From a virus: a stretch of 22,567 nucleotides of DNA. Positions 1-20,529 of this stretch are shown here, piece by piece. How positions within the stretch are numbered: position 1 is the stretch's first letter; every line of letters begins with the position of its first letter. Location: the IMG/VR virus record IMGVR_UViG_3300030419_004891, positions 1-22,567 of that record, one strand, 5' to 3'. Made by a program: the position numbers and the translations under genes. Under the pieces are notes generated by a model, which searched no databases, was not told where the DNA came from, and saw only the letters and a program-made list of their open reading frames with translations.

Positions 1-1275
1 TGAAGCCAATCGCTACAGATCGTTCTCCAGAAACATCGGCATAGCCCCCCAAAGCAATAGCACCAAAAGCGTCTGATGTTGCTGATTGACCAATAGCCAT
101 TCCGAAATCCGCAGTAGTACCATCTCCCACTACAGCCGAGTTGCCTATAGCTATGGACTGACCATCATAAGCCTTAGCACTATATCCCAATGCCAGAGAA
201 TTATACCCCTCGGCACGGGAGTTGTGGCCAATAGCCATCGCCTGATTGGTATTGGTATAAGAACTTGTACCTATAGCTATGGTGCGTCTTCCATTCGCAG
301 TAGAACTCGTGCCAATAGCAATAGCATCGAAATCTCCACCCACAGCATAAGCGCTAGAACCTATAGCAATATCATAGGCATATGGATGATTAGTACCCAC
401 CACCGCATTATTACCAATACAAACATTGACACCACTCGTGCGGATATCGTAGACATTGAGGACGCCTGACGGTGTCATAGCGGCTACGTTTGTTCCAGCC
501 GAGTTTTGCCACTGCATCAAATCAGTTGTCTGGGCAGCAGACGCTATCTGGCGGAACTGTTGGCCATTTGGTAATGAGAGATGAGATCCAAACACGCCCG
601 ACAACATAACACTAGTCTGAGCAGAACCAGAAGCTACCACAAAATGCTTTTCGGGAGCAACTACCCCATAACCCAACCCTACAGCAAATTTACCAGCAGC
701 ATTTGCTTGATAACCAATTGCAACACTACCATATTGTGCAGCAGTTCTGGCACCATACAGACACGCCTGAGTAGAATCATATCCTGCTATGTACGCCCCT
801 TGAGTCCCTACTATAGTAGTCATGCTTGCTGTGGTGTTTGTAGCGACGTAGTTTACCTTCTGGCCTATTCCCACCGTGTCAGACCAAGCGCTCACTGCGT
901 ACTGATTGATACCTATCATGACGGCTCTTCGATCAGCGGGAGTGCCGCCAATATTTACAGTACTATCGTGAGCGTCTGCATTATTACCAATAGCAACGGA
1001 CTCGTATCCACCACCGGTGTTGTTGCCTATAACTACTCCATAGGTGCCCTGAGTGTTTGCACCTATAGCTACAAGACCATGGCTCGCAGTAGCTTTTGGG
1101 CCTATGGCTACACCACCATTCGACTGAACCCGCGCGCCTGATCCTATAGCAATACCGAGATCCGAAGTTACATTAGCAGATGTTCCGATAGCTATTGCGT
1201 CATCAGCACTAACATAAGCACCAGAGCCAATACTAACGGGGCCTAGATAATTAGCGTCACCACTGTTGGCGATAA
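1..1275 (-). repeat. Fibre mega-repeat unit C (partial)
   Basis: This third copy is cut by the left edge. It contains YadA-like repeats, a neck module at about 434-640, then further YadA-like repeats (AIALGGYADVSGERSVAIG) reaching the edge. Relative to unit B, the spacing between neck modules is 1695 bp rather than 1572 bp. That fits a different number of short repeats. Confidence 0.8.
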
Positions 1276-4200
1276 TTGTACCGCTCACTACAAGTACGCG
1301 GTCATTCGTAAACGCGGCGTTATTTTTGGCAAACAAGAATTGGGCATCTGCTCCAAAATTAGTTCCGTCAGAGTTATACTGAATCTGATGAATTGCACCA
1401 GCCGCCGAACCACCACCCACAGCAGAACCATTGAAACTCAGCGTTCCGCCGTCATTGTACAACGTGTTTGTTGTGACAGTAGGTGCATTACTCGCAAGGA
1501 CGATGCCAGAGTTACCTACGATAACACCCGTTGCCCGGACCATTGCGCCGTGACCCAATGCGTCAACCGTGTAAGTCGGAACGTTGCCACCAACGGCTAA
1601 TTTCTGGTCATTCGGGATGGCGGTGTAAGAGCCAAACACGCCCGAGATACCAACTTCAGCCGAAGTGTCACCCGATGCAATTACCCAACTCGTACCATGA
1701 GCCTGTGCTTCATAACCAATCGCCACGGACCTCTCTCCAAGAGCATCTGTGTAAGCACCAAGGGCGGTAGCATTTATTCCGGCAGCGGAGCTATCTTTAC
1801 CAAGAGCAATAGTGGTACTAGCACTTGCATTAGCACTTTTTCCTACGGCAATAGCAGCAAAACCACCAGCACTTGCACTGGCGCCAAATGCAGTCGCCTG
1901 ATCGTTGCCGCCGTTTGCGCCCCGCCCCACAACTGTACTCGACATGCCATTAGTGCTAGTACTAGTGCCTACTGCAACACAATATCCACCGCCACCACCT
2001 GCGGTAGTCGCACCACCTCCGATAGCCACATCACCTTGTCCCTGTGCTATTCCCAATAGGGCTATATTTCCACCGCCAACACCACCATAAACAACTTGAG
2101 CATTCGGGCCTAAGCAAACGCTGTGACCACTTGTGCGAATTTCATAAGCGTTGAGGATACCCGAGGGCGTCATCGAGGCGACGTTTGTTCCTGCCGAATT
2201 CTGCCACTGCATAAGATCAGTTGTCTGGGCGGCAGTAGCCATCTGTCTAAACTGTTGACCGTTGGGCATCGTAAGGTGCGTCTTCATAACACCTGACAGT
2301 AACACGTCAGTTAACGCAGAACCAGAAGCCACAACAAACCCGCCATCGGGAGCATGAGCGTAATTCCCTAGAGCCACAGCATGTTCACCTGCTTCTGACG
2401 AAGAACCAAGAGCGGTTCCACGATGTCCCGTTACTTCAGCATAATAACCTATCGCTGTAACGTCCTCTATATTAGTAGAAAGATGCTGCGCCCTATGGCC
2501 AATAGCTACGCTCCTCCTAACCCCGTTGGTATTGTTCCAACCAACCTGCTTGCCAATTGCAATACTGTTACTACCAGCGCGTGCTTGCACCCCTATAGCT
2601 ATAGCTTCCGTCTCGAAGTTTGTGGCCAGATATCCCATAGCCACACCGTTTTGATAAGATGTACACCCAATACCTATAGAAACAGAATTTGTTCCCCAGT
2701 AGTACTTACTTTGAGAGTCCTTACCAATAACAACATTGTTAGGCTGACCTGCGGATGCACCCTTACCAATAACAACATTATTGTCATATCCACCAATAGC
2801 TCCAGATCCAATAACAACCATACCCGGACGAGCAGCGTCGGCGGGATTAGTCACAATCGTACCGCTAACCATGAGAGTAACGTGGTTATCATTATCTCCC
2901 TTAATGCTCGACAGCACTTTGCCACCGGAACTCTTACTCTCAAAGTGAACTTTATTATCCACTATAGCAATACCAGAACCCGCAGTGAGAGAGCTGCCGC
3001 CAATCGCTGACCCGTTCCACTTCAAGTCAGAACCATCTCGGTAAAGCGTATAATCGGTTACCGCAGGAACGTTGTCTGACAAGACGACGCCAGAGTTACC
3101 TACGATAACACCCGTAGCTCGAACCATTGCGCCGTGACCCAATGCGTCAACCGTGTAAGTCGGAACGTTGCCGCCAACGGCGAGTTTCTGATCGTTCGGA
3201 ATCGCAGTGTAAGAGCCGAACACACCCGAAATACCGACTTCAGCCGAAGTGTCACCCGAAGCAATTACCCAGCTCGTACCATGAGCCTGCGCTCTCCAGC
3301 CAATCGCAACTGATCGCTCTCCAATAGCATCTGTATAACCACCAAGAGCAGTCGCACTCCAACCATCCGCAACTGCACCACCACCAATAGCAGTTGCTTG
3401 ATCAGCATTAGCTTTAGCTTCATTACCCATAGCCGTAGCCGTCGAATATTTAGCATCAGATCCATATCCAATAGCCACAGCTCCATAACCCTCAGCTTCC
3501 GCTTGAGATCCCACCGCCGTTGCTTGAGATGACGTAGCTTCTGAGTTGTTACCTATCGCTACAGTGCGTTGGTCGTTTGATTTTGCTGTATTGCCTATAG
3601 CAACTGCGCCAAACGACGCGCCAGCGGCTTCTGCATTCACACCTATGGCAACATCTAAGCTTCCTGTTTCCGCATTGTTTCCGATTGTCACAGAGGTACC
3701 GCTTGTGCGAATGTCGTAGACATTCAAGACACCTGACGGCGTCATAGCGGCTACATTTGTGCCAGCTGAGTTTTGCCACTGCATGAGGTCAGTTGTCTGC
3801 GCCGCCGTTGCCATCTGCCTAAACTGCTGTCCATTTGGCATCGTGAGATGCGTTTTCATAACACCCGACAGCAACACGTCTGTTTGTGCAGAACCAGAAG
3901 CTACAACAAAGTGACCATCGGGAGCAACAGCTTGGTGTCCAAGGGCAATTGCAAATTCACGAGCGACGGTCTTAAAACCAATAGCAACCGAGTGGCCACC
4001 ATGACCCGTAGTGGTATCATTAAATCCAGCCTCTTCACCAATAGCAATACTACGTGCCCCTATAGCGTCGGCCTTATAGCCAATAGCTATACCCTCGCTG
4101 GTTCTTGTTCTTGACTGGCCGCCTATCGCAACACCAGCAAACGCCGCTGAATTAACACCTTTACCAATTGCAATAGATTCATGCGCGGTCGCATTGGCTT

Positions 4201-7200
4201 CTGTCCCTATAGCTATCGCATATTGATCACTCGCCGTATTAGTCTGGCCTATTGCTATACCATTAGTATCGGAAACTATGGAATTTACACCTATAGCAAC
4301 GCCACGAGCAGCGGCACGAGTTTTAGATCCACCGCCATACGTGCCAGCGCCGATAGCAATGGCATTATCACCCGTCACATAAGTGCCAGAACCAATACTT
4401 ACCGGGCTGATGTAGGCGGCGTCACCACTACTCGCTATAATCGTACCACTAACCGCAAGGATATGACTATTCTTATGAACCCCACCTTGACCATCCGTAG
4501 TACGCCAGAAACCGGGATCAGCGCCAAAATTCGCCCCGTCCGCGTTATACTGAACCTGATAAATCGCGCCAGAGGCATTGGTAGTACTACTAGTAGCAGC
4601 TTCCCAATTGGGCACATTACCATTCATAGTCAGAACATGATTATCTGTACCCTTAGCCAGTCTCGTAAAAGTACTGCCATCATGGTAAAGTATGTCACCT
4701 TCGGCATTTGATCCAAAAGTAATATTAGATGTGTTGCCAGAGGCATAAGCCGCCACGCCAGATGCGGAATTAAGTGACAACGCTTCGCCTGAAGCATAAT
4801 TAGCGGTATTGGTGGCGGCAGTTATGTTAGTAGTATTGGTAGAAATGTTAGAAGCGTTAGTGGCGGTTAACCCGGAAGCATATGTCAACGACAGCGCTTG
4901 ACCCGAAGCGTAATTGGCGGTATTAGTAGCCGCTGTTATATTTGTAGTATTGGTTGAAATATTAGAGGCATTAGTGGCAGTTAAGCCAGAGGCATACGTC
5001 AACGATAGCGCCTGACCGGAAGCATAATTAGCAATACCAGAAACAGCAACAATATCACTAGCATTAGTGGTAATATTTGATGCGTTGGTGGCGGTTAGGC
5101 CAGAAGCATAAGTAAGCGACAGAGCTTCTCCAGAAGCATACTGAGCGGTCGGACTCGCCCCACCAGCACTAGCCAACTGAGTCCCATTAAAGTATAAAGT
5201 ACCCGCCACATTATAAAGCGTATTGTCAGTATCAGAAGGAGTACTGCTAGAAAGAACAACACCAGAATTTCCAACATTAACACCACTAGAATATAACCAA
5301 GAATCGAACTGATTAAGTCTACCGTTCTTAACACCACTAAATGATTTATTGGCGTCTAGTATTAGAGCCTTCGACGCTTCTGCGGTGCCATCAGTAGTAA
5401 CATTAACTTGACCAGATGCATACGCCGCCACGCCAGATACATATAAGTCATCATGAGCGTGACCAGATGCATAATGCGCAATGCCTGATACAGCAACTAT
5501 ATCACTAGCATTGGTAGTAATATTGGATGCGTTGGTAGCGGTCAATCCAGACGCATATGTTAATGACAAAGCTTCACCCGAAGCATAATTGGCCGTATTC
5601 GTGACCGCTGTTATGTTGGTTGTGTTAGTTGAAATATTCGACGTGTTGGTCGAAATGTTTGATGCGTTAGTAGCCGTTAGTCCAGAAGCATAAGTTAGCG
5701 ATAAAGCTTGGCCCGAGGCATAATTAGCTGTACTAGTAGCTGCCGTGATATTAGTAGTATTAGTCGAAATATTACTAGCGTTAGTGTTAATAGATGTTCG
5801 TAAAGCCCCAGAAGCCGTAACAATATCAGCAGCATTAGTTGCAATATTAGCAGCATTAGTCAGAGAATTACCAGAAGCATAAGCCGCAACACCTGAAGCA
5901 TAGTTAAGAGATTCAGCCTGTCCTGACCCATATACAGCAATACCAGAAACATAAACTAGCTGCGCAGTTGTTACATCGCCACCCCCTCCAGTAGCAGCTT
6001 CCCACGCAGGAACATTACCATCCATAGTAAGTACATGACTATCTGTACCCTTAGGAAGTCTTGTAAATGATGTACCATTATGATAAAGAATATCGCCCTC
6101 GGCATTTGAACCAAAAGCAATATTAGATGTATTACCAGAGGCGTATGCAGCAACACCAGAAACATATAGATCATCGTGCGCATGACCAGAAGCATAAGCA
6201 GCAATACCAGAAACTGCAACTATATCATCTTTATTTTCAATGGCTTGACCAGAGGCATAATTCGCTATATTGGTCGCAGATGTTATATTAGTCGTATTAG
6301 TGGAAATGTTCGATGTGTTGGTCGAAACATTCGACGTGTTAGTAGAGATGTTCGACGTGTTAGTACTAATATTAGAAGTGTTGGTTGCGATTGCTGTCTC
6401 GTTTTCAATCGCTTGGCCCGACGCATAAACAGCACGCCCAGAAACATAAACCATCTGAGCAGTCGTTACATCACCGATAGTAGATCCGTTGAATTTAAGC
6501 GTTCCACCATCATTGTATAAGGTGTTTGTGGTTACGGAGGGAGTATTACTTGCAAGAACAATACCAGAATTACCAACAATAACACCGCTAATCTGTGCCA
6601 TTCCCTGAACATCCAGATCATAAGCTGGCGATGTATTATTTCCTAACCCCACTCCTAATTTATTTCCAAATCCGATATTTACTCTATCATCATCTTCGTC
6701 AAGCAGTAACATCTGATTACCACCAACAACGAATCTTAATCTATCTTCAGCATCTGTTTCAATCCAAGTTCCCTTGTCTACCTCAAAGTATATTCTTTGG
6801 TCTTGATCTAAGTTTATGTCACCACCAGCGCCAACAACAATACCGGACGCTCCCACATGAATACCACTAGACTGTACCCACGCATCATGACCAACAACAT
6901 CTAACTTATAAGCAGGGGAACCTGTGCCAATACCCACTTTATCATTTGCGGCATCTGTTCTTATAAGGGTTTCATCATTATCCCCCTTTACTACAAAATC
7001 AATATCTGCCGCATTCTCATTAACTGTAACAGTGTCCGGGCTAGAGCCAGCAGATTCATCTAATGTGAGGAATGTTAAGTTACCAGCCACAAAGTCGAAT
7101 TGGTCGCCCCGAAGTCTGATGTAAGTATCGTTATCTCCATTATGATAAATATATTGATCCACATACATATTACCAAAAGTGGGAGTGCCACCAGTCACAA

Positions 7201-8803
7201 CACCTGACGCATAATTCGCAACACCTGATGCCACATTTAATGACGTAGCCTGTCCAGAAGAATATACAGCAATACCTGAAACATAATTTAACTGATCAGT
7301 AGTTACATCACCACTACCAACCTCACCAGAAGCATATACCGCAATACCTGAAACATAGTTTAGCTGCGCGGGAGTAACTGTACCACCACCACCAGCTAAA
7401 GGCGAACCATTCCAGTATAACCCACCACCAACGCTATATAATGTATTAGAGGTAACGGTAGGAGTACTATCGGTAACCTGTAGTCCCGCGCCACTAGCAA
7501 CCAAACCATTAGCAGAAACAATACCAGAATTACTTACACTTGCTAAAATACCATCAGAAGCGTTCACCCATTGAGTAAGATCAGCACTTTGAGCTGCTGC
7601 CGATTTGACAACAACACCCTTATCAGTAGCGGTATTAATACCCACATGAAACGTATCAGAAAGAGTAATATCAGCATTACCAATAGCCACTCTTTTACTA
7701 TCCATGTCACCTTTAATCAAGGTACCCATAGATGATGGAGAAGCATTTCCAATAAATAATAAATCATTACCAGTATTACTTTGCCCAGCAGATTTACCAA
7801 TATAAATACTGTCATTAGCTGTAGAGCTTTTTCCCGCCTCTTTACCAATACCAATAGATCTGGCAGCACCAGTAGAAGAATGACCAGCACCCCTACCAAC
7901 CCATGTTGAATCTACACCACCACCATTGTATCCCGCCTGATAACCAATAATTGTAGCATAGTTATCATTATATGAATTACCCGCTTCCATACCTACCGCA
8001 ACAGAATAACTACCAATACCAGAAGCCGCCTGATACCCCATAGCCACAAAACCAATTTCATAAGCATCAATACCTGCTTGATGTCCTATAGCTGTAGAAC
8101 AATGGCGCATTTTATGGCCAGCTTGATAGCCAACCGAAACAGCGTGATAAACCACAGAAGATGAACCAGCTGCAACCGGACCCGACTGATATCCAATATG
8201 AACATTTTGAGAACCGGTCTGATTTTTAACTGCCGCCTCAGTACCAATGATGACACTTTGATTTGCGCTCGTGACACCGCTACCAGCACCATGACCTATT
8301 AAAATATTACCATTATTAGATGGGCCAGTACTATCACCCACCAATAGACTCTTATTAGTAACATCAAATGAAAGTAAATGAGTAGAAGCGGGAGTTCCAC
8401 TAACATTCACATCATACAGTTCTGTAATTTTGGCATCTTTGATAATTGTCCCATTATCAAAAACTAAACCAGACGCGCCAACAATAGCTTGACTTTCCTG
8501 ATTTCGATAAACACTTTTTTCAGCAGGATAAGTAATAAATACCGTACCACTACCACCTAAGCTGATCTTATTGCCACTATTAGAGCTACCTAATATATAA
8601 TCACGCTCTAGATTACTAGAGCCATAGGTACCAATACCAACTTCCCATTTGTCATTTTCCTCAATGGTATAGTAGGTAATATCACCTGAGCTTAATACAG
8701 AACTAAATGTTTGAAATCCAACCGGACTTCCTGTAAAAGAAATACCCCCAGTACCTGTACTAGAAGTATTTTCCCTTACCCTATCAGCTACTTTAAGAGC
8801 CAT
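1..8803 (-). CDS. Giant phage fibre/adhesin with YadA-head-like repeats (partial, C-terminus off the left edge)
   Basis: ATG at 8803-8801 follows a GGGAG ribosome site. The frame reads without a stop to position 2, giving at least 2934 residues. Residues 1 to about 100 (MALKVADRVRENTSSTGTGG, ending near TYPAEKSVY) match the N-terminus seen in many aquatic-phage tail fibres, probably the virion-attachment end. Residues about 155-370 are a first block of YadA-like head repeats of about 15 residues (pattern S.AIG..A.A.G). Near 400-427 lies a TQWVNASDG-type segment. YASG/YVSG repeats follow, then two segments (about 541-571 and 665-715) of the NGDNDTYIRLRG / DEDDDRVNIG type. About 780-1350 is a long low-complexity stretch of YASG, ALSLTYASG and NTSNIST repeats. 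From about 1400 onward come YadA-like blocks alternating with neck modules. Such left-handed beta-roll and stalk repeats form trimers in YadA adhesins; trimeric receptor binding is inferred. No S74 chaperone-peptidase domain is visible; it could lie beyond the edge. Confidence 0.9.
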   Translation of the reverse strand, partial: MALKVADRVRENTSSTGTGGISFTGSPVGFQTFSSVLSSGDITYYTIEENDKWEVGIGTYGSSNLERDYILGSSNSGNKISLGGSGTVFITYPAEKSVYRNQESQAIVGASGLVFDNGTIIKDAKITELYDVNVSGTPASTHLLSFDVTNKSLLVGDSTGPSNNGNILIGHGAGSGVTSANQSVIIGTEAAVKNQTGSQNVHIGYQSGPVAAGSSSVVYHAVSVGYQAGHKMRHCSTAIGHQAGIDAYEIGFVAMGYQAASGIGSYSVAVGMEAGNSYNDNYATIIGYQAGYNGGGVDSTWVGRGAGHSSTGAARSIGIGKEAGKSSTANDSIYIGKSAGQSNTGNDLLFIGNASPSSMGTLIKGDMDSKRVAIGNADITLSDTFHVGINTATDKGVVVKSAAAQSADLTQWVNASDGILASVSNSGIVSANGLVASGAGLQVTDSTPTVTSNTLYSVGGGLYWNGSPLAGGGGTVTPAQLNYVSGIAVYASGEVGSGDVTTDQLNYVSGIAVYSSGQATSLNVASGVANYASGVVTGGTPTFGNMYVDQYIYHNGDNDTYIRLRGDQFDFVAGNLTFLTLDESAGSSPDTVTVNENAADIDFVVKGDNDETLIRTDAANDKVGIGTGSPAYKLDVVGHDAWVQSSGIHVGASGIVVGAGGDINLDQDQRIYFEVDKGTWIETDAEDRLRFVVGGNQMLLLDEDDDRVNIGFGNKLGVGLGNNTSPAYDLDVQGMAQISGVIVGNSGIVLASNTPSVTTNTLYNDGGTLKFNGSTIGDVTTAQMVYVSGRAVYASGQAIENETAIATNTSNISTNTSNISTNTSNVSTNTSNISTNTTNITSATNIANYASGQAIENKDDIVAVSGIAAYASGHAHDDLYVSGVAAYASGNTSNIAFGSNAEGDILYHNGTSFTRLPKGTDSHVLTMDGNVPAWEAATGGGGDVTTAQLVYVSGIAVYGSGQAESLNYASGVAAYASGNSLTNAANIATNAADIVTASGALRTSINTNASNISTNTTNITAATSTANYASGQALSLTYASGLTATNASNISTNTSNISTNTTNITAVTNTANYASGEALSLTYASGLTATNASNITTNASDIVAVSGIAHYASGHAHDDLYVSGVAAYASGQVNVTTDGTAEASKALILDANKSFSGVKNGRLNQFDSWLYSSGVNVGNSGVVLSSSTPSDTDNTLYNVAGTLYFNGTQLASAGGASPTAQYASGEALSLTYASGLTATNASNITTNASDIVAVSGIANYASGQALSLTYASGLTATNASNISTNTTNITAATNTANYASGQALSLTYASGLTATNASNISTNTTNITAATNTANYASGEALSLNSASGVAAYASGNTSNITFGSNAEGDILYHDGSTFTRLAKGTDNHVLTMNGNVPNWEAATSSTTNASGAIYQVQYNADGANFGADPGFWRTTDGQGGVHKNSHILAVSGTIIASSGDAAYISPVSIGSGTYVTGDNAIAIGAGTYGGGSKTRAAARGVAIGVNSIVSDTNGIAIGQTNTASDQYAIAIGTEANATAHESIAIGKGVNSAAFAGVAIGGQSRTRTSEGIAIGYKADAIGARSIAIGEEAGFNDTTTGHGGHSVAIGFKTVAREFAIALGHQAVAPDGHFVVASGSAQTDVLLSGVMKTHLTMPNGQQFRQMATAAQTTDLMQWQNSAGTNVAAMTPSGVLNVYDIRTSGTSVTIGNNAETGSLDVAIGVNAEAAGASFGAVAIGNTAKSNDQRTVAIGNNSEATSSQATAVGSQAEAEGYGAVAIGYGSDAKYSTATAMGNEAKANADQATAIGGGAVADGWSATALGGYTDAIGERSVAIGWRAQAHGTSWVIASGDTSAEVGISGVFGSYTAIPNDQKLAVGGNVPTYTVDALGHGAMVRATGVIVGNSGVVLSDNVPAVTDYTLYRDGSDLKWNGSAIGGSSLTAGSGIAIVDNKVHFESKSSGGKVLSSIKGDNDNHVTLMVSGTIVTNPADAARPGMVVIGSGAIGGYDNNVVIGKGASAGQPNNVVIGKDSQSKYYWGTNSVSIGIGCTSYQNGVAMGYLATNFETEAIAIGVQARAGSNSIAIGKQVGWNNTNGVRRSVAIGHRAQHLSTNIEDVTAIGYYAEVTGHRGTALGSSSEAGEHAVALGNYAHAPDGGFVVASGSALTDVLLSGVMKTHLTMPNGQQFRQMATAAQTTDLMQWQNSAGTNVASMTPSGILNAYEIRTSGHSVCLGPNAQVVYGGVGGGNIALLGIAQGQGDVAIGGGATTAGGGGGYCVAVGTSTSTNGMSSTVVGRGANGGNDQATAFGASASAGGFAAIAVGKSANASASTTIALGKDSSAAGINATALGAYTDALGERSVAIGYEAQAHGTSWVIASGDTSAEVGISGVFGSYTAIPNDQKLAVGGNVPTYTVDALGHGAMVRATGVIVGNSGIVLASNAPTVTTNTLYNDGGTLSFNGSAVGGGSAAGAIHQIQYNSDGTNFGADAQFLFAKNNAAFTNDRVLVVSGTIIANSGDANYLGPVSIGSGAYVSADDAIAIGTSANVTSDLGIAIGSGARVQSNGGVAIGPKATASHGLVAIGANTQGTYGVVIGNNTGGGYESVAIGNNADAHDSTVNIGGTPADRRAVMIGINQYAVSAWSDTVGIGQKVNYVATNTTASMTTIVGTQGAYIAGYDSTQACLYGARTAAQYGSVAIGYQANAAGKFAVGLGYGVVAPEKHFVVASGSAQTSVMLSGVFGSHLSLPNGQQFRQIASAAQTTDLMQWQNSAGTNVAAMTPSGVLNVYDIRTSGVNVCIGNNAVVGTNHPYAYDIAIGSSAYAVGGDFDAIAIGTSSTANGRRTIAIGTSSYTNTNQAMAIGHNSRAEGYNSLALGYSAKAYDGQSIAIGNSAVVGDGTTADFGMAIGQSATSDAFGAIALGGYADVSGERSVAIGF
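1276..2856 (-). repeat. Fibre mega-repeat unit B (about 1581 bp)
   Basis: This is the second copy of the unit, with the neck module at about 2129-2335 and the second conserved module at about 1496-1715. Its YadA-like stretch between the two modules is glycine-rich (GGVGGGN, TTAGGGGGY) and unlike the equivalent stretch of unit A. The scaffold is therefore conserved while the roll surface has diverged. Confidence 0.85.
2857..4440 (-). repeat. Fibre mega-repeat unit A (about 1584 bp)
   Basis: Unit boundaries are set by a recurring segment encoding VSGTI(I/V), seen on the plus strand as TCGTACC at 4441 and 2857 and TTGTACC at 1276. The spacings are 1584 and 1581 bp, both multiples of three. From N- to C-terminus the unit holds YadA-like repeats, a neck module (3701-3907), more YadA-like repeats, a second conserved module (about 3082-3300) and a linker. 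Copies differ in the number and sequence of the short repeats but keep the reading frame. Confidence 0.85.
4740..6470 (-). repeat. YASG / NTSNIST low-complexity repeat stalk within the fibre gene
   Basis: More than twenty imperfect repeats of YASG, YVSG, ALSLTYASGLTATN and (N/S)ISTNT(S/T)NI occur in one frame. Threonine, asparagine and serine dominate, with isoleucine or valine spaced as in heptad-like stalks. In the DNA this appears as repeated (cc/ca)agaagcata and ttagtagtatt blocks. The stretch probably forms an extended trimeric stalk between the N-terminal attachment region and the YadA-like heads. The structure is inferred; the repetition is directly visible. Confidence 0.75.
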
Positions 8804-8854
8804 GATCACTCCCACATATTAGGATTTATAGCTATAGTATATATCGCAAATCAG

Positions 8855-16683: not shown

Positions 16684-17010
16684 TTAAGTATTCATTATAA
16701 GAGTTATTATCTTTTCGTTTCTGGGATCATCTAGAAATCCTATAAGCCCCGTCGAAACCCTAGACACCACCTTCTCCTCATCATCATGACTTTGTATATG
16801 TGTTAAATGCCACATGGCGTGTAATATTTCATGCAGTAATGTATCTCGAATAACAGATGGAGCTACACCACAATATATTCTAATTTTCTTTTGGTCATTA
16901 CAGCAGTCTCCATACGCCTCACGTTCCTTAAATAATTTTTCTGACATTTCCTCGACTATGTATTCATGTCCTAGTACGTACACCTTAGTTGGAAGCTTCT
17001 TTCTGGCCAT
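16684..17010 (-). CDS. HExxH putative zinc metallopeptidase-like protein (108 aa)
   Basis: The motif HEILH (residues 60-64 of the chosen start) inside DTLLHEILHAMWHL is a gluzincin-type zinc site. A downstream DDEEKVVSRV stretch offers a glutamate as third ligand. Short phage proteins with this layout are widespread near terminase genes; their substrate is not known to me. The start is ATG at 17010, preceded by GTGGAGACAATA inside the upstream gene. An upstream ATG at 17037 has no ribosome site. It overlaps the ERCC4-nuclease gene by 26 bp and is immediately followed by terL. Peptidase activity is predicted from the motif only. Confidence 0.78.
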   Translation of the reverse strand: MARKKLPTKVYVLGHEYIVEEMSEKLFKEREAYGDCCNDQKKIRIYCGVAPSVIRDTLLHEILHAMWHLTHIQSHDDEEKVVSRVSTGLIGFLDDPRNEKIITLIMNT

Positions 17011-17494
17011 TATTGTCTCCACTATGAAACAATTCATTTAAACGCTTAAAGACACTATTACAAACAATAAAGGCATTATTCTTGTCGCCGCAAAATAGTA
17101 TTTTTGTATCGTACCACAATTGAAATTCAATCAGACATTTAAGTAAATATTTTCCCGTGACCCTCACTTTAGATCGTGCGCGCGTTGGTACCCTAGACCC
17201 CTCGGGATATTTCAAGAGATCACTCATAGTAAACTCACAAATAATAAATGAAAACTCGTAATCCCGCATTCTTTCCATCTCGGCTTGAAATGGCTTTTTC
17301 TTCCTACCTAAATTCATAGCTATTTCTGAAGTACATGCCTTACGCTCAATGCATATTACATCTTCAAAACCTTTTAGAGTATAATCCCCAGTATGTAAGG
17401 TGCCGATCTCCATGCCAGCACACTTATCATACTGAGAAAAACTCCACCCGTTTTGTTCACGGGTATCTTTAATAACTGTATAATTTGGTGACAT
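16985..17494 (-). CDS. ERCC4-type (XPF/Mus81-like) nuclease
   Basis: 169 residues. The N-terminal half carries the ERCC4 nuclease signature: DTREQ (10-14), TGDY (35-38) and IERKA (49-53). Asp10, Glu13, Asp37, Glu50 and Lys52 are the metal and catalytic candidates. The family cleaves branched or flap DNA; in phages such nucleases are linked to resolving DNA before or during packaging and to recombination. In the canonical GDX(n)ERKX3D motif the last Asp is replaced here by Ser-Glu. The ribosome site GAGG lies in the last codons of the preceding gene, which stops 1 nt before this ATG, so translation is likely coupled. Confidence 0.82.
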   Translation of the reverse strand: MSPNYTVIKDTREQNGWSFSQYDKCAGMEIGTLHTGDYTLKGFEDVICIERKACTSEIAMNLGRKKKPFQAEMERMRDYEFSFIICEFTMSDLLKYPEGSRVPTRARSKVRVTGKYLLKCLIEFQLWYDTKILFCGDKNNAFIVCNSVFKRLNELFHSGDNNGQKEASN

Positions 17495-17749: not shown

Positions 17750-18016
17750 TTAACCCCTTTTTTGAATTAAGCTTGTAAAATACGTAATGTAATGACTTTC
17801 CTTGCCTGTTATCTCTTTATGACAGTTCCAACATAAAGCAATCCCATTTTCTACATCATACCTCAAAGAAGCCGCCGATGACCACTTCATAATATGATGA
17901 ACATTAAGTCTTGCTTTCCTCCCTTTTGCTCCACACATTTGACAGGTAAATTTATCCCGCTTCAATACCCGCATTCTGAAGTCCTTGTACGCCGGATCGT
18001 TGTAGTCTCGCTTCAT
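17750..18016 (-). CDS. HNH endonuclease (phage packaging-associated type)
   Basis: 88 residues from ATG at 18016. GGAG is 10 nt upstream of this ATG but only 1 nt from the alternative ATG at 18025. The HNH core is visible: CQMCG zinc-binding pair, NVHHIMKW (first His pair), ENGIALCWNCHKEI (Asn, second Cys pair and final His). Small HNH proteins beside terminase genes are required for efficient genome cleavage and packaging in several phages (for example HK97 gp74). The start overlaps the end of the dehydratase gene by 65 bp, unusually long for this compact operon. Free-standing homing endonuclease is the alternative, but its small size and place favour the packaging type. Confidence 0.85.
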   Translation of the reverse strand: MKRDYNDPAYKDFRMRVLKRDKFTCQMCGAKGRKARLNVHHIMKWSSAASLRYDVENGIALCWNCHKEITGKESHYITYFTSLIQKRG

Positions 18017-19085
18017 GGATATCATTCTCCACCATACGTTGCACTAAAGATTTAAATGACACCTCAGGCTCCCACGCCAGTTTCTTTCTAGCTTTACTAG
18101 AAAGACCCAAAAGATAGTCTACTTCAGCTGGCCGATAAAACTTAGGATCAATTACTATGAAATCCTCATAATCATCCACCCCAATACCACAAAACGCTTC
18201 TACTAACAAATCACGCACCGCATACGCAACTCCTGTGGCCACAACATAGTCGTCAGGCTTCTTTTGTTGAAGCATCAACCACATGGCCCGCACATAATCC
18301 TCTGCATGTCCCCAGTCCCTTTTAGCGTCCAGATTCCCCAATCTAAGTTTTGGAAATTGAAATCCTTGAGATCTATCGGTCCTTCCCGCAATATATACTT
18401 CGTCCTCGTCTACTGTTACTAAGTCGCTCGGTCCCACATGGTGTTCTTCCATCCACGATACAAATTTCCCCAACCACTTGGTAACCTTACGTGTTACAAA
18501 ATTTTCCCCGCGCCGCTCAGATTCATGATTAAACAAAATCCCACTACAGCAAAACATCCCATAGGAGGCCCGATAATTATCTACCAAATAATGGGCCGCC
18601 ACTTTTGCAATAGCGTAGGGGCTCTGGGGTTGAAATGGCGTATCTTCATCTTGATATCGGTGCGCTTCGTGAAGTTCCGTACTAACACTATAATTTCTAC
18701 CAAACATCTCACTAGAAGACGCCTGATAAAACTTAATATCTTTTAGTCGACCCGAATATCTAATTGCCTCCAGTATATTCATACAGCCGCCCGCTGTAAC
18801 GTCCCACGTTAGGGAGGGTTGATTAAAAGAAGTACCCACATGAGACTGGGCAGCTAAATTGTATATCTCGTCGGGCTCATGTTGATTGACGATATTACTC
18901 ACATTAAATGCGTCCGTAATATCACCCTCGATGATTTGTATTTGGGGCAGAATATGATTAATCCTGACGAGCGTATCTACGCTGACTCGTCGGGTAACGC
19001 CCAACACTTCGTAGCCCTGTTCTAAAAGAAGTTCGGCTAGATAACTCCCATCTTGTCCCGTAATCCCAAAAATAATAGCTTTCAT
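17952..19085 (-). CDS. gmd: GDP-mannose 4,6-dehydratase
   Basis: 377 residues. Converts GDP-D-mannose to GDP-4-keto-6-deoxy-mannose, the precursor of GDP-fucose, GDP-rhamnose and related sugars. The extended-SDR signature is clear: GITGQDG (7-13, NADP binding), NLAAQSHVG (76-84), SSSEMFG (123-129), YAIAK (157-161, catalytic Tyr/Lys), LFNHESERRGENFVTRK and RPAEVDYLLG. Between FVTRK (200) and LRLGNLDAKRDWGH there are about 46 residues where E. coli Gmd has about 15, so this enzyme carries an insertion of about 31 residues (SDLVTVDEDEVYIAGRTD region). ATG at 19085 has AAGGAG 5 nt upstream, overlapping the stop of the preceding gene. Its presence in a packaging operon suggests modification of host or virion surface sugars. 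Confidence 0.93.
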   Translation of the reverse strand: MKAIIFGITGQDGSYLAELLLEQGYEVLGVTRRVSVDTLVRINHILPQIQIIEGDITDAFNVSNIVNQHEPDEIYNLAAQSHVGTSFNQPSLTWDVTAGGCMNILEAIRYSGRLKDIKFYQASSSEMFGRNYSVSTELHEAHRYQDEDTPFQPQSPYAIAKVAAHYLVDNYRASYGMFCCSGILFNHESERRGENFVTRKVTKWLGKFVSWMEEHHVGPSDLVTVDEDEVYIAGRTDRSQGFQFPKLRLGNLDAKRDWGHAEDYVRAMWLMLQQKKPDDYVVATGVAYAVRDLLVEAFCGIGVDDYEDFIVIDPKFYRPAEVDYLLGLSSKARKKLAWEPEVSFKSLVQRMVENDIHEARLQRSGVQGLQNAGIEAG

Positions 19086-19087
19086 AA

Positions 19088-19882
19088 TTACTCCTTGACT
19101 GTGTCCGCTGTTAGAAATGGCTGATCTACCATTCCGTCCTCATAGTTAGAATATTCTGACAACCGTTCTTTTTCCTTTTCTGTGGCGAGTCGCATTTTTT
19201 CCATCTCGATCCCGATGTGGTTACGGTAAGAGGGATCTGTTGCGATTTTTTTCACAAGCGCCGCAAATGTAAGCTTAGAATCTTCTATGGCTTTAATACG
19301 TTGCTCTCTGGTGCCCTTGAGGTCCTTGAGCATCGTCGCCTTGCGGGCCTGAAGATCCTTATAGTCTTTGGATAGTGTTTCCTGTGAAGCTCTTAGAATC
19401 GCTATCTGGCGCTCCATATTGATGATTAGATCCATGTCGCGCTGATCCTTGTCTCTAGCTTTTTCATCTTGCACCAATCTCTCGTTCATTAGCACCTCTT
19501 GCTGATTATCCATTTGGCTCTTGAGGATACGATTCATAAGAATTTCCAACTTGATAGTATCAATTATCTGCATTTCTTCTGTATGAAACACATCGTCCTT
19601 AAATTGGGACCACATCTTTTTGAAATGAAACTCAAACATTTCCAACTCTTCAGCCGAGAATTGGTTGGATAATTCGCGATAATAAGGTTTCGCCTTTAAT
19701 TCATTAGCTACAGCTGCCTCTTTTTTCTGAGAAGCCGAGAAGCCCACATTCTTTTCAATCCAGTCCCTAATTGAAGCAGGATCGCGATCTAGTTTCTCTG
19801 CGATCTGATCAGGAGAAAGAACCTCGGCTTGCGCCTCGATAAACGACATTTCATCAACGGAGAATCTACCCTTCTTCATCAT
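19088..19882 (-). CDS. HTH / coiled-coil protein, candidate terminase small subunit (264 aa)
   Basis: Residues about 8-45 form a helix-turn-helix-like domain (VLSPDQIAEKLDRDPASIRD, WIEKNVGFS) of the sort that recognises DNA in small terminases. Residues about 95-250 are a long, highly charged helix or coiled coil (DEKARDKDQRDMDLIINMER and on) without enzyme motifs. DNA binding plus oligomerising helix is the small-terminase plan, and no other small-terminase candidate is visible in this packaging cluster, although it is four genes away from terL. Two ATGs (19882, 19879) share the AAGGAG site; the second has the better spacing. The gene overlaps the sigma-like gene by 17 bp. The alternative is a regulator or scaffold-like protein. 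Confidence 0.62.
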   Translation of the reverse strand: MMKKGRFSVDEMSFIEAQAEVLSPDQIAEKLDRDPASIRDWIEKNVGFSASQKKEAAVANELKAKPYYRELSNQFSAEELEMFEFHFKKMWSQFKDDVFHTEEMQIIDTIKLEILMNRILKSQMDNQQEVLMNERLVQDEKARDKDQRDMDLIINMERQIAILRASQETLSKDYKDLQARKATMLKDLKGTREQRIKAIEDSKLTFAALVKKIATDPSYRNHIGIEMEKMRLATEKEKERLSEYSNYEDGMVDQPFLTADTVKE

Positions 19883-20405
19883 ATTCTCCTTCGATTATAC
19901 GTTTAATAACTTCAGTAATATTGGCCTTACGGCTTTTTGGCAGAGATGAGTTTGAGCGTAATTTAAGATAGTCTCCTCTCAGGTGCGCTGGGAGTTTTCT
20001 ATCTATCAAGTCTAGTATCTCCTCTAAATGGGCCTGATCAACGGTTTCATCTCGGGTGGCAATTGAATAGAGGCTATGAATGTCTATGGGTTCAAGGAGG
20101 CTGCGCTTACGGTCCTGTATCTTTTGGGCGTTTCCGTGGTCAAATCTATAATAGTTATCGCGTTTGAAATTCTTCAGGCGGTTATTAATGTGCGTGTAAA
20201 GGAAATTCTCTAGGGGCTTACTGGTGTCGTAACGGTCAAGGGCCTCTATACCCATTAAAAATGCTTCTTGCTGTATATCATCAACATCATATGAGGCAAA
20301 AACATATTTAGGGGCGAGTTTTCGGGCGATTTTATTAATCGTGTTGAGCACCTGTTGCTCACTCAGGTTCTTTGGTATCTTCATCCTCTTTAGTTTCCTC
20401 GGCAA
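19866..20405 (-). CDS. Sigma-70-region-2-like RNA polymerase sigma factor, probable late-gene regulator
   Basis: The segment DVDDIQQEAFLMGIEALDRY, DTSKPLENFLYTHINNRLKN, FKRDNYYR matches sigma-70 region 2 (core binding and -10 recognition). A C-terminal helix-rich part (LPAHLRGDYLKLRSNSSLPK, then ITEVIKRIIEG) may be a reduced region 4. The length of about 180 residues is that of phage late sigma factors such as T4 gp55. The start I prefer is TTG at 20405, with GGAGG 8 nt upstream. An ATG at 20441 in the same frame has no ribosome site, and one at 20384 has GAGG directly against it. The gene overlaps the preceding small gene. It would direct host polymerase to late promoters, an inference from family and context. 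Confidence 0.82.
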   Translation of the reverse strand: MPRKLKRMKIPKNLSEQQVLNTINKIARKLAPKYVFASYDVDDIQQEAFLMGIEALDRYDTSKPLENFLYTHINNRLKNFKRDNYYRFDHGNAQKIQDRKRSLLEPIDIHSLYSIATRDETVDQAHLEEILDLIDRKLPAHLRGDYLKLRSNSSLPKSRKANITEVIKRIIEGEYDEEG

Positions 20406-20529
20406 AAGACAGTCCTCCGGGGGGATCGGGGATATTGGCATCTAATATCTGCTGTACCTCCTCGTCTAGCTGGGCGGTACTTTTAGTATTCAACACGGTG
20501 TCGGCCAATTTGGTGCGTTTGTTACTCAT
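20359..20529 (-). CDS. Small acidic-tailed protein of unknown function (56 aa), first gene of the late operon
   Basis: ATG at 20529 has AAGGAG 5 nt upstream; the longer frame from 20556 has none. The N-terminus is basic (MSNKRTKLADTVLNTK), the middle has a helix (AQLDEEVQQILDANI) and the C-terminus is very acidic (EETKEDEDTKEPE). It overlaps the sigma-like gene and contains that gene's ribosome site, so the two are probably translationally coupled. Small size, charge polarity and pairing with the sigma-like factor could mean a partner or modulator of it, but that is speculation; I recognise no family. Confidence 0.68.
   Translation of the reverse strand: MSNKRTKLADTVLNTKSTAQLDEEVQQILDANIPDPPGGLSFAEETKEDEDTKEPE

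Follow-up and report, generated by a model that had tools for sequence, protein, structure and literature searches.

Our findings suggest that the very long fibre of an uncultured marine phage reuses one structural connector, here called module A, which was copied between cassettes of the fibre and then held by selection; we give this reading a probability of about 0.62. The window, by which we mean the whole stretch of DNA analysed, is the entire virus record IMGVR_UViG_3300030419_004891 (22,567 bases), probably a fragment of a viral genome. On the minus strand, positions 2..8815 form a single uninterrupted frame, at least 2,938 codons long and still open at the contig end. It carries nine stretches of YadA head repeats (Pfam YadA_head, PF05658, E 2.9e-31), and we therefore take it to encode a fibre-type protein, probably a trimeric one. 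Virion structural genes lie upstream, where a major head protein, a portal and a terminase were recognised by their matches; the terminase is only ~25% identical to those of cultured phages. Amid these genes lies one for a GDP-mannose 4,6-dehydratase-like protein (17952-19085, minus strand; PF16363, E 4.5e-111), overlapped by an HNH endonuclease gene (17750-18025); an ERCC4-type nuclease domain is encoded at 16985-17494 and a sigma-70 region 2 protein at 19866-20441, both on the minus strand.

Module A occurs twice as a block of 68 residues (AQAHGTSWVIASGD...GVIVGNSG from start to end), with copy A1 (AQAHGTSW...GVIVGNSG) at 3089..3292 and copy A2 at 1505..1708, both on the minus strand. A sister connector of 72 residues, module B (HFVVASGSAQTD...DIRTSG in B1), is present three times on the same strand (B1, 3698..3913; B2, 2126..2341; B3, 431..646). 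YadA-type head repeats fill the intervals from B1 to A1 (3293..3697, minus strand; a Pfam YadA_head match) and from B2 to A2 (1709..2125, minus strand; assigned by alignment), the latter having diverged from the former. The C-terminus of the fibre lies beyond the contig end. There, positions 1-50 of the window read ...LGGYADVSGERSVAIGF on the minus strand and stop about nine residues short of the start expected for one more module A, as judged from A1 and A2; the assembly may have broken off here because of this further, nearly identical copy.

A codon-by-codon comparison of A1 and A2 bears out the central claim of an earlier, sequence-only reading, namely that the two segments differ at synonymous sites only. 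Their proteins are identical over all 68 residues, and the 18 base differences, which fall in 17 codons, are silent without exception; within the narrower limits HGTSW to GVIVGN (62 codons), the count is exactly 17, as against the approximately 17 reported. The range given for the module, 1496-3300, does contain both copies, but it also takes in the material between them and is not one segment. Protein identity extends from three residues before HGTSW to GNSG, is followed by a V/I exchange and then gives way to divergence. The differences comprise 14 transitions and 4 transversions (DNA identity 91.2%), and the sole codon changed at two bases is the leucine pair CTC/TTA, whose path averaging alone accounts for the single non-synonymous difference (nd = 1) returned by the NG86 method. 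Silent divergence (dS) amounts to 0.41 by NG86, or to 0.44 (bootstrap 0.23-0.78) if all 18 changes are counted as silent. Under neutrality, an outcome with all 18 silent has a chance of ~4e-11; in 20,000 simulated runs a mean of 5.2 of the 18 changes were silent and the maximum was 13. Omega is bounded from above at ~0.05 (95% limit). The view that the copies are not the product of a fresh duplication is thus supported. The nearby flanks do differ in protein, as had been noted, with 49-77% identity and dN of 0.16-0.50. Module A is under strong purifying selection at the protein level.

Is selection enough to explain the pair? The sequence-only reading invoked purifying selection, and in this it was right; copying or homogenisation is required besides, because the silent divergence of module A lies far below that of the rest of the cassette pair. 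Considering only codons that specify the same residue in both copies, silent change affects 17/66 in module A, compared with 32/60 between B1 and B2 (P 0.002), 35/58 in the heads between B and A (P 1e-4) and 15/19 in the right flank just past GNSG (P 7e-5); in the pooled rest of the cassette pair it affects 82/137 (P 6e-6), and the left flank (8/17) shows no significant excess over module A (P 0.14). Both A copies moreover have a GC3 of 0.50 against ~0.31 elsewhere (residue-matched permutation, P 5e-4), and this shared feature together with the low silent divergence suggests that the A copies are more recent in origin than the cassettes around them. Judged from these sequence comparisons, the module A block probably passed from one cassette to the other, by copying or homogenisation, when the rest had already diverged; in this one gene, either an event inside the gene (copying or gene conversion) or the import of both A copies could account for it. 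GC3 is likewise raised in all three B connectors, and in the B connector of the nearest relative, when each is compared with the rest of its own fibre.

Alternatively, selection might have acted alone, on a single ancient duplication of the whole cassette of which module A is simply the most constrained part. Such a history would accommodate the exclusively silent changes in A, as well as module B and the linkers with the same low dN. Constraint on a protein, however, leaves silent change untouched, and yet module A lies well below its cassette pair in precisely this class of change. Constraint on the DNA itself could lower it, but the longest unchanged run in the module, of 16 codons, is not significant (P 0.08), and on the same ground we rejected a conversion tract or a DNA constraint within that run. 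We thus regard selection alone as unlikely. A mosaic origin of B3, with a first half resembling module B of the nearest relative and a second half resembling B1, was suggestive by eye, but a test for conversion gave no significance (P 0.28; third positions, P 0.34).

How does module A behave between phages? Scans for relatives yielded 80 loci by terminase and 80 by the fibre N-terminal domain. The nearest relative, G001 (IMGVR_UViG_3300025277_000118), has a terminase 91% identical to that of the window, and over fibre residues 1-430 the two phages are 92% identical with a dS of 0.60. The G001 fibre is complete at ~2,290 residues and shows the same neck-head-B-head-A order, in one cassette rather than several, followed by a C-terminal domain with matches to tail fibre families (phrog_9017, E 3.4e-10). 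Its single module A is only 59% identical to that of the window, with saturated silent sites and a GC3 of 0.30, so that the module is uniform inside the window fibre yet variable between close phages. Strong conservation across phages is therefore not what we find: apart from G001, single-sequence and profile scans of IMG/VR viral contigs returned no other full module A, no relatives were found in cultured phages, and a scan of bacterial genomes with a profile of the cap returned none either. The dS range of the A pair (0.23-0.78) overlaps the 0.60 separating the window from G001 and therefore does not tell whether the copying came before or after these two lineages parted. The heads, by comparison, seem to move between phages, because the third head of the window is closer to a head of the phage locus L221 (G023:C1:160000-173842, on a 173.8 kb contig), whose fibre has several YadA-type head arrays, than to those of its own protein (dS 0.67 and dN 0.34, whereas heads within the window differ from one another by dS 1.45-1.90). 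Conceivably, the two A copies were not copied within the gene at all and one module was imported twice, independently, from related phages. The raised GC3 of both copies and the apparent mobility of heads would agree with such imports; close copies did not turn up in any other phage, although a donor may be unsampled, and we consider this origin very unlikely.

What might the connector do? Module A combines a head cap with the linker motif 'VG.G..P.Y..D......GVIVGNSG' and is placed between YadA-type head arrays. The cap, which closes a head array, is common to A and B and has 'ASG' (or GSG), 'SGV' and 'PN.Q' at fixed places. The second half of A, 'VGGNVPTYTVDALGHGAMVRATGVIVGNSG', is a form of a linker motif that recurs in this and related fibres, and the continuation of B, 'AAQTTDLMQWQNSAG', has relatives in other viral contigs. 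In an AlphaFold monomer model, the head between B1 and A1 is a confident beta-strand repeat (pLDDT > 90 in the core) and aligns with the BoaA head 3s6l (rmsd 6.8 over 131 residues) at Z 15.5, well above the next match at Z 7.6; model and alignment agree on a left-handed beta-roll. Plain Foldseek gave nothing significant, and the second aligner placed the head only. Modules A and B are unstructured in the monomer (pLDDT ~30), which would fit segments that become ordered only as trimers and would equally fit any segment with a shallow alignment; the connector fold of module A is accordingly putative. Its position and motif make the neck proposed by the sequence-only reading plausible, as a neck-like, trimeric connector, and a role in trimer registration would be a further step.

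The companion suggestion of a cleavage or attachment element found no support. The fixed sequence of module A and its place between heads could be expected of a cleavage, attachment or receptor-binding element. Searches of module A against Pfam at E up to 10, however, returned no curated connector family and no protease, autocleavage or attachment family, neither the head cap nor connectors A and B matched any Pfam family, and PHROG yielded only weak matches of unknown function. The module is also reused within the chain, differs by 41% in G001 and is accompanied by a second, similar connector present three times, all of which makes such a role scarcely probable. Very improbable, too, is an assembly chimera that merged A copies from different strains in one contig: although this is a metagenomic record that ends within the repeat region, its frame of 2,938 codons is uninterrupted, heads and necks differ between the cassettes, the same order of parts is found in G001, and A1 and A2 have no exact run in common longer than 50 bases, so that the copies should assemble apart.

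The protein-identical, silently diverged A pair is not special, as the same behaviour is seen in module B, in the YASG linkers and in repeats of relatives. Among the three copies of module B, dN is 0.05-0.15 and dS ranges from ~1.4 to saturation. We surveyed 40 distinct fibre-like frames of this phage and its relatives for repeat pairs that span at least 40 residues with a protein identity of 90% or more, and found 76 such pairs within genes, at 90-100% identity. Their low dN is partly built in, because protein identity was the criterion for choosing them, and the informative part is the range of dS, which extends from 0.02 to saturation and for most pairs from 0.3 upwards. Pairs with fully identical protein include 79 residues in L126 (dS 0.32), 40 residues in L101 (dS 1.6) and 42 residues in L097 (saturated). 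In the 8.8 kb of highly repetitive fibre coding DNA of the window, the longest exact direct repeat measures 50 bases. In such very long, repetitive fibres, selection may additionally reward silent differences between repeats, keeping proteins the same while removing sameness of DNA, because DNA-identical repeats would, as proposed, be lost by recombination. We attach only a very small probability to this idea, and the absence of exact repeats above 50 bases is so far explained equally well by simple age.

We envision a scenario whereby the fibre contains several neck-head-B-head-A cassettes, in which module A would close a YadA-type beta-roll head array and lead the chains into the next linker, possibly becoming ordered only as a trimer and holding the three chains in register. 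Heads would change fast or be swapped with other phages. At a later stage the A block would have been copied or gene-converted from cassette to cassette, or both copies imported from one source, and afterwards selection on the folded connector would have purged amino-acid changes while silent sites drifted.

Such a fibre resembles the YadA-type trimeric autotransporter adhesins (BadA, BpaC, YadA) in its beta-roll head repeats and neck-type connectors, and its sequence matches among YadA-type structures are 3s6l, 7o23, 2xqh and 1p9h. Unlike those adhesins, it belongs to a phage and shows no autotransporter anchor in an ORF that lacks its C-terminus in the window. The closest published parallels appear to be the BadA adhesin, whose repeated domains are reshuffled by recombination within the gene (PMC8859334), and crAssphage tail proteins, whose tandem BACON domains have multiplied through duplication as well as transfer from genome to genome (PMC6949934). 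The latter are likewise tail-associated domain repeats, albeit of a different domain, and the words 'synonymous' and 'nucleotide' are absent from the text of that paper, which accordingly did not deal with silent sites. Nothing close to an analysis of silent sites in phage fibre repeats was found in the literature. Tail fibres of marine phages have a constant N-terminus and a variable distal part, with YadA-type domains tied to host recognition (PMC3909814, PMC7029224); the phages concerned are T7-like and T4-like pelagiphages, whereas the fibre of the window is far longer and its terminase as remote from cultured phages as stated above. A corollary of our findings is that marine phages may assemble their very long fibres from fast-changing YadA-type heads and slow-changing connectors that are reused in a single protein. 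Protein-identical repeats in such genes would often be old and selected, not fresh duplications, and silent-site divergence can order the ages of modules inside one gene.
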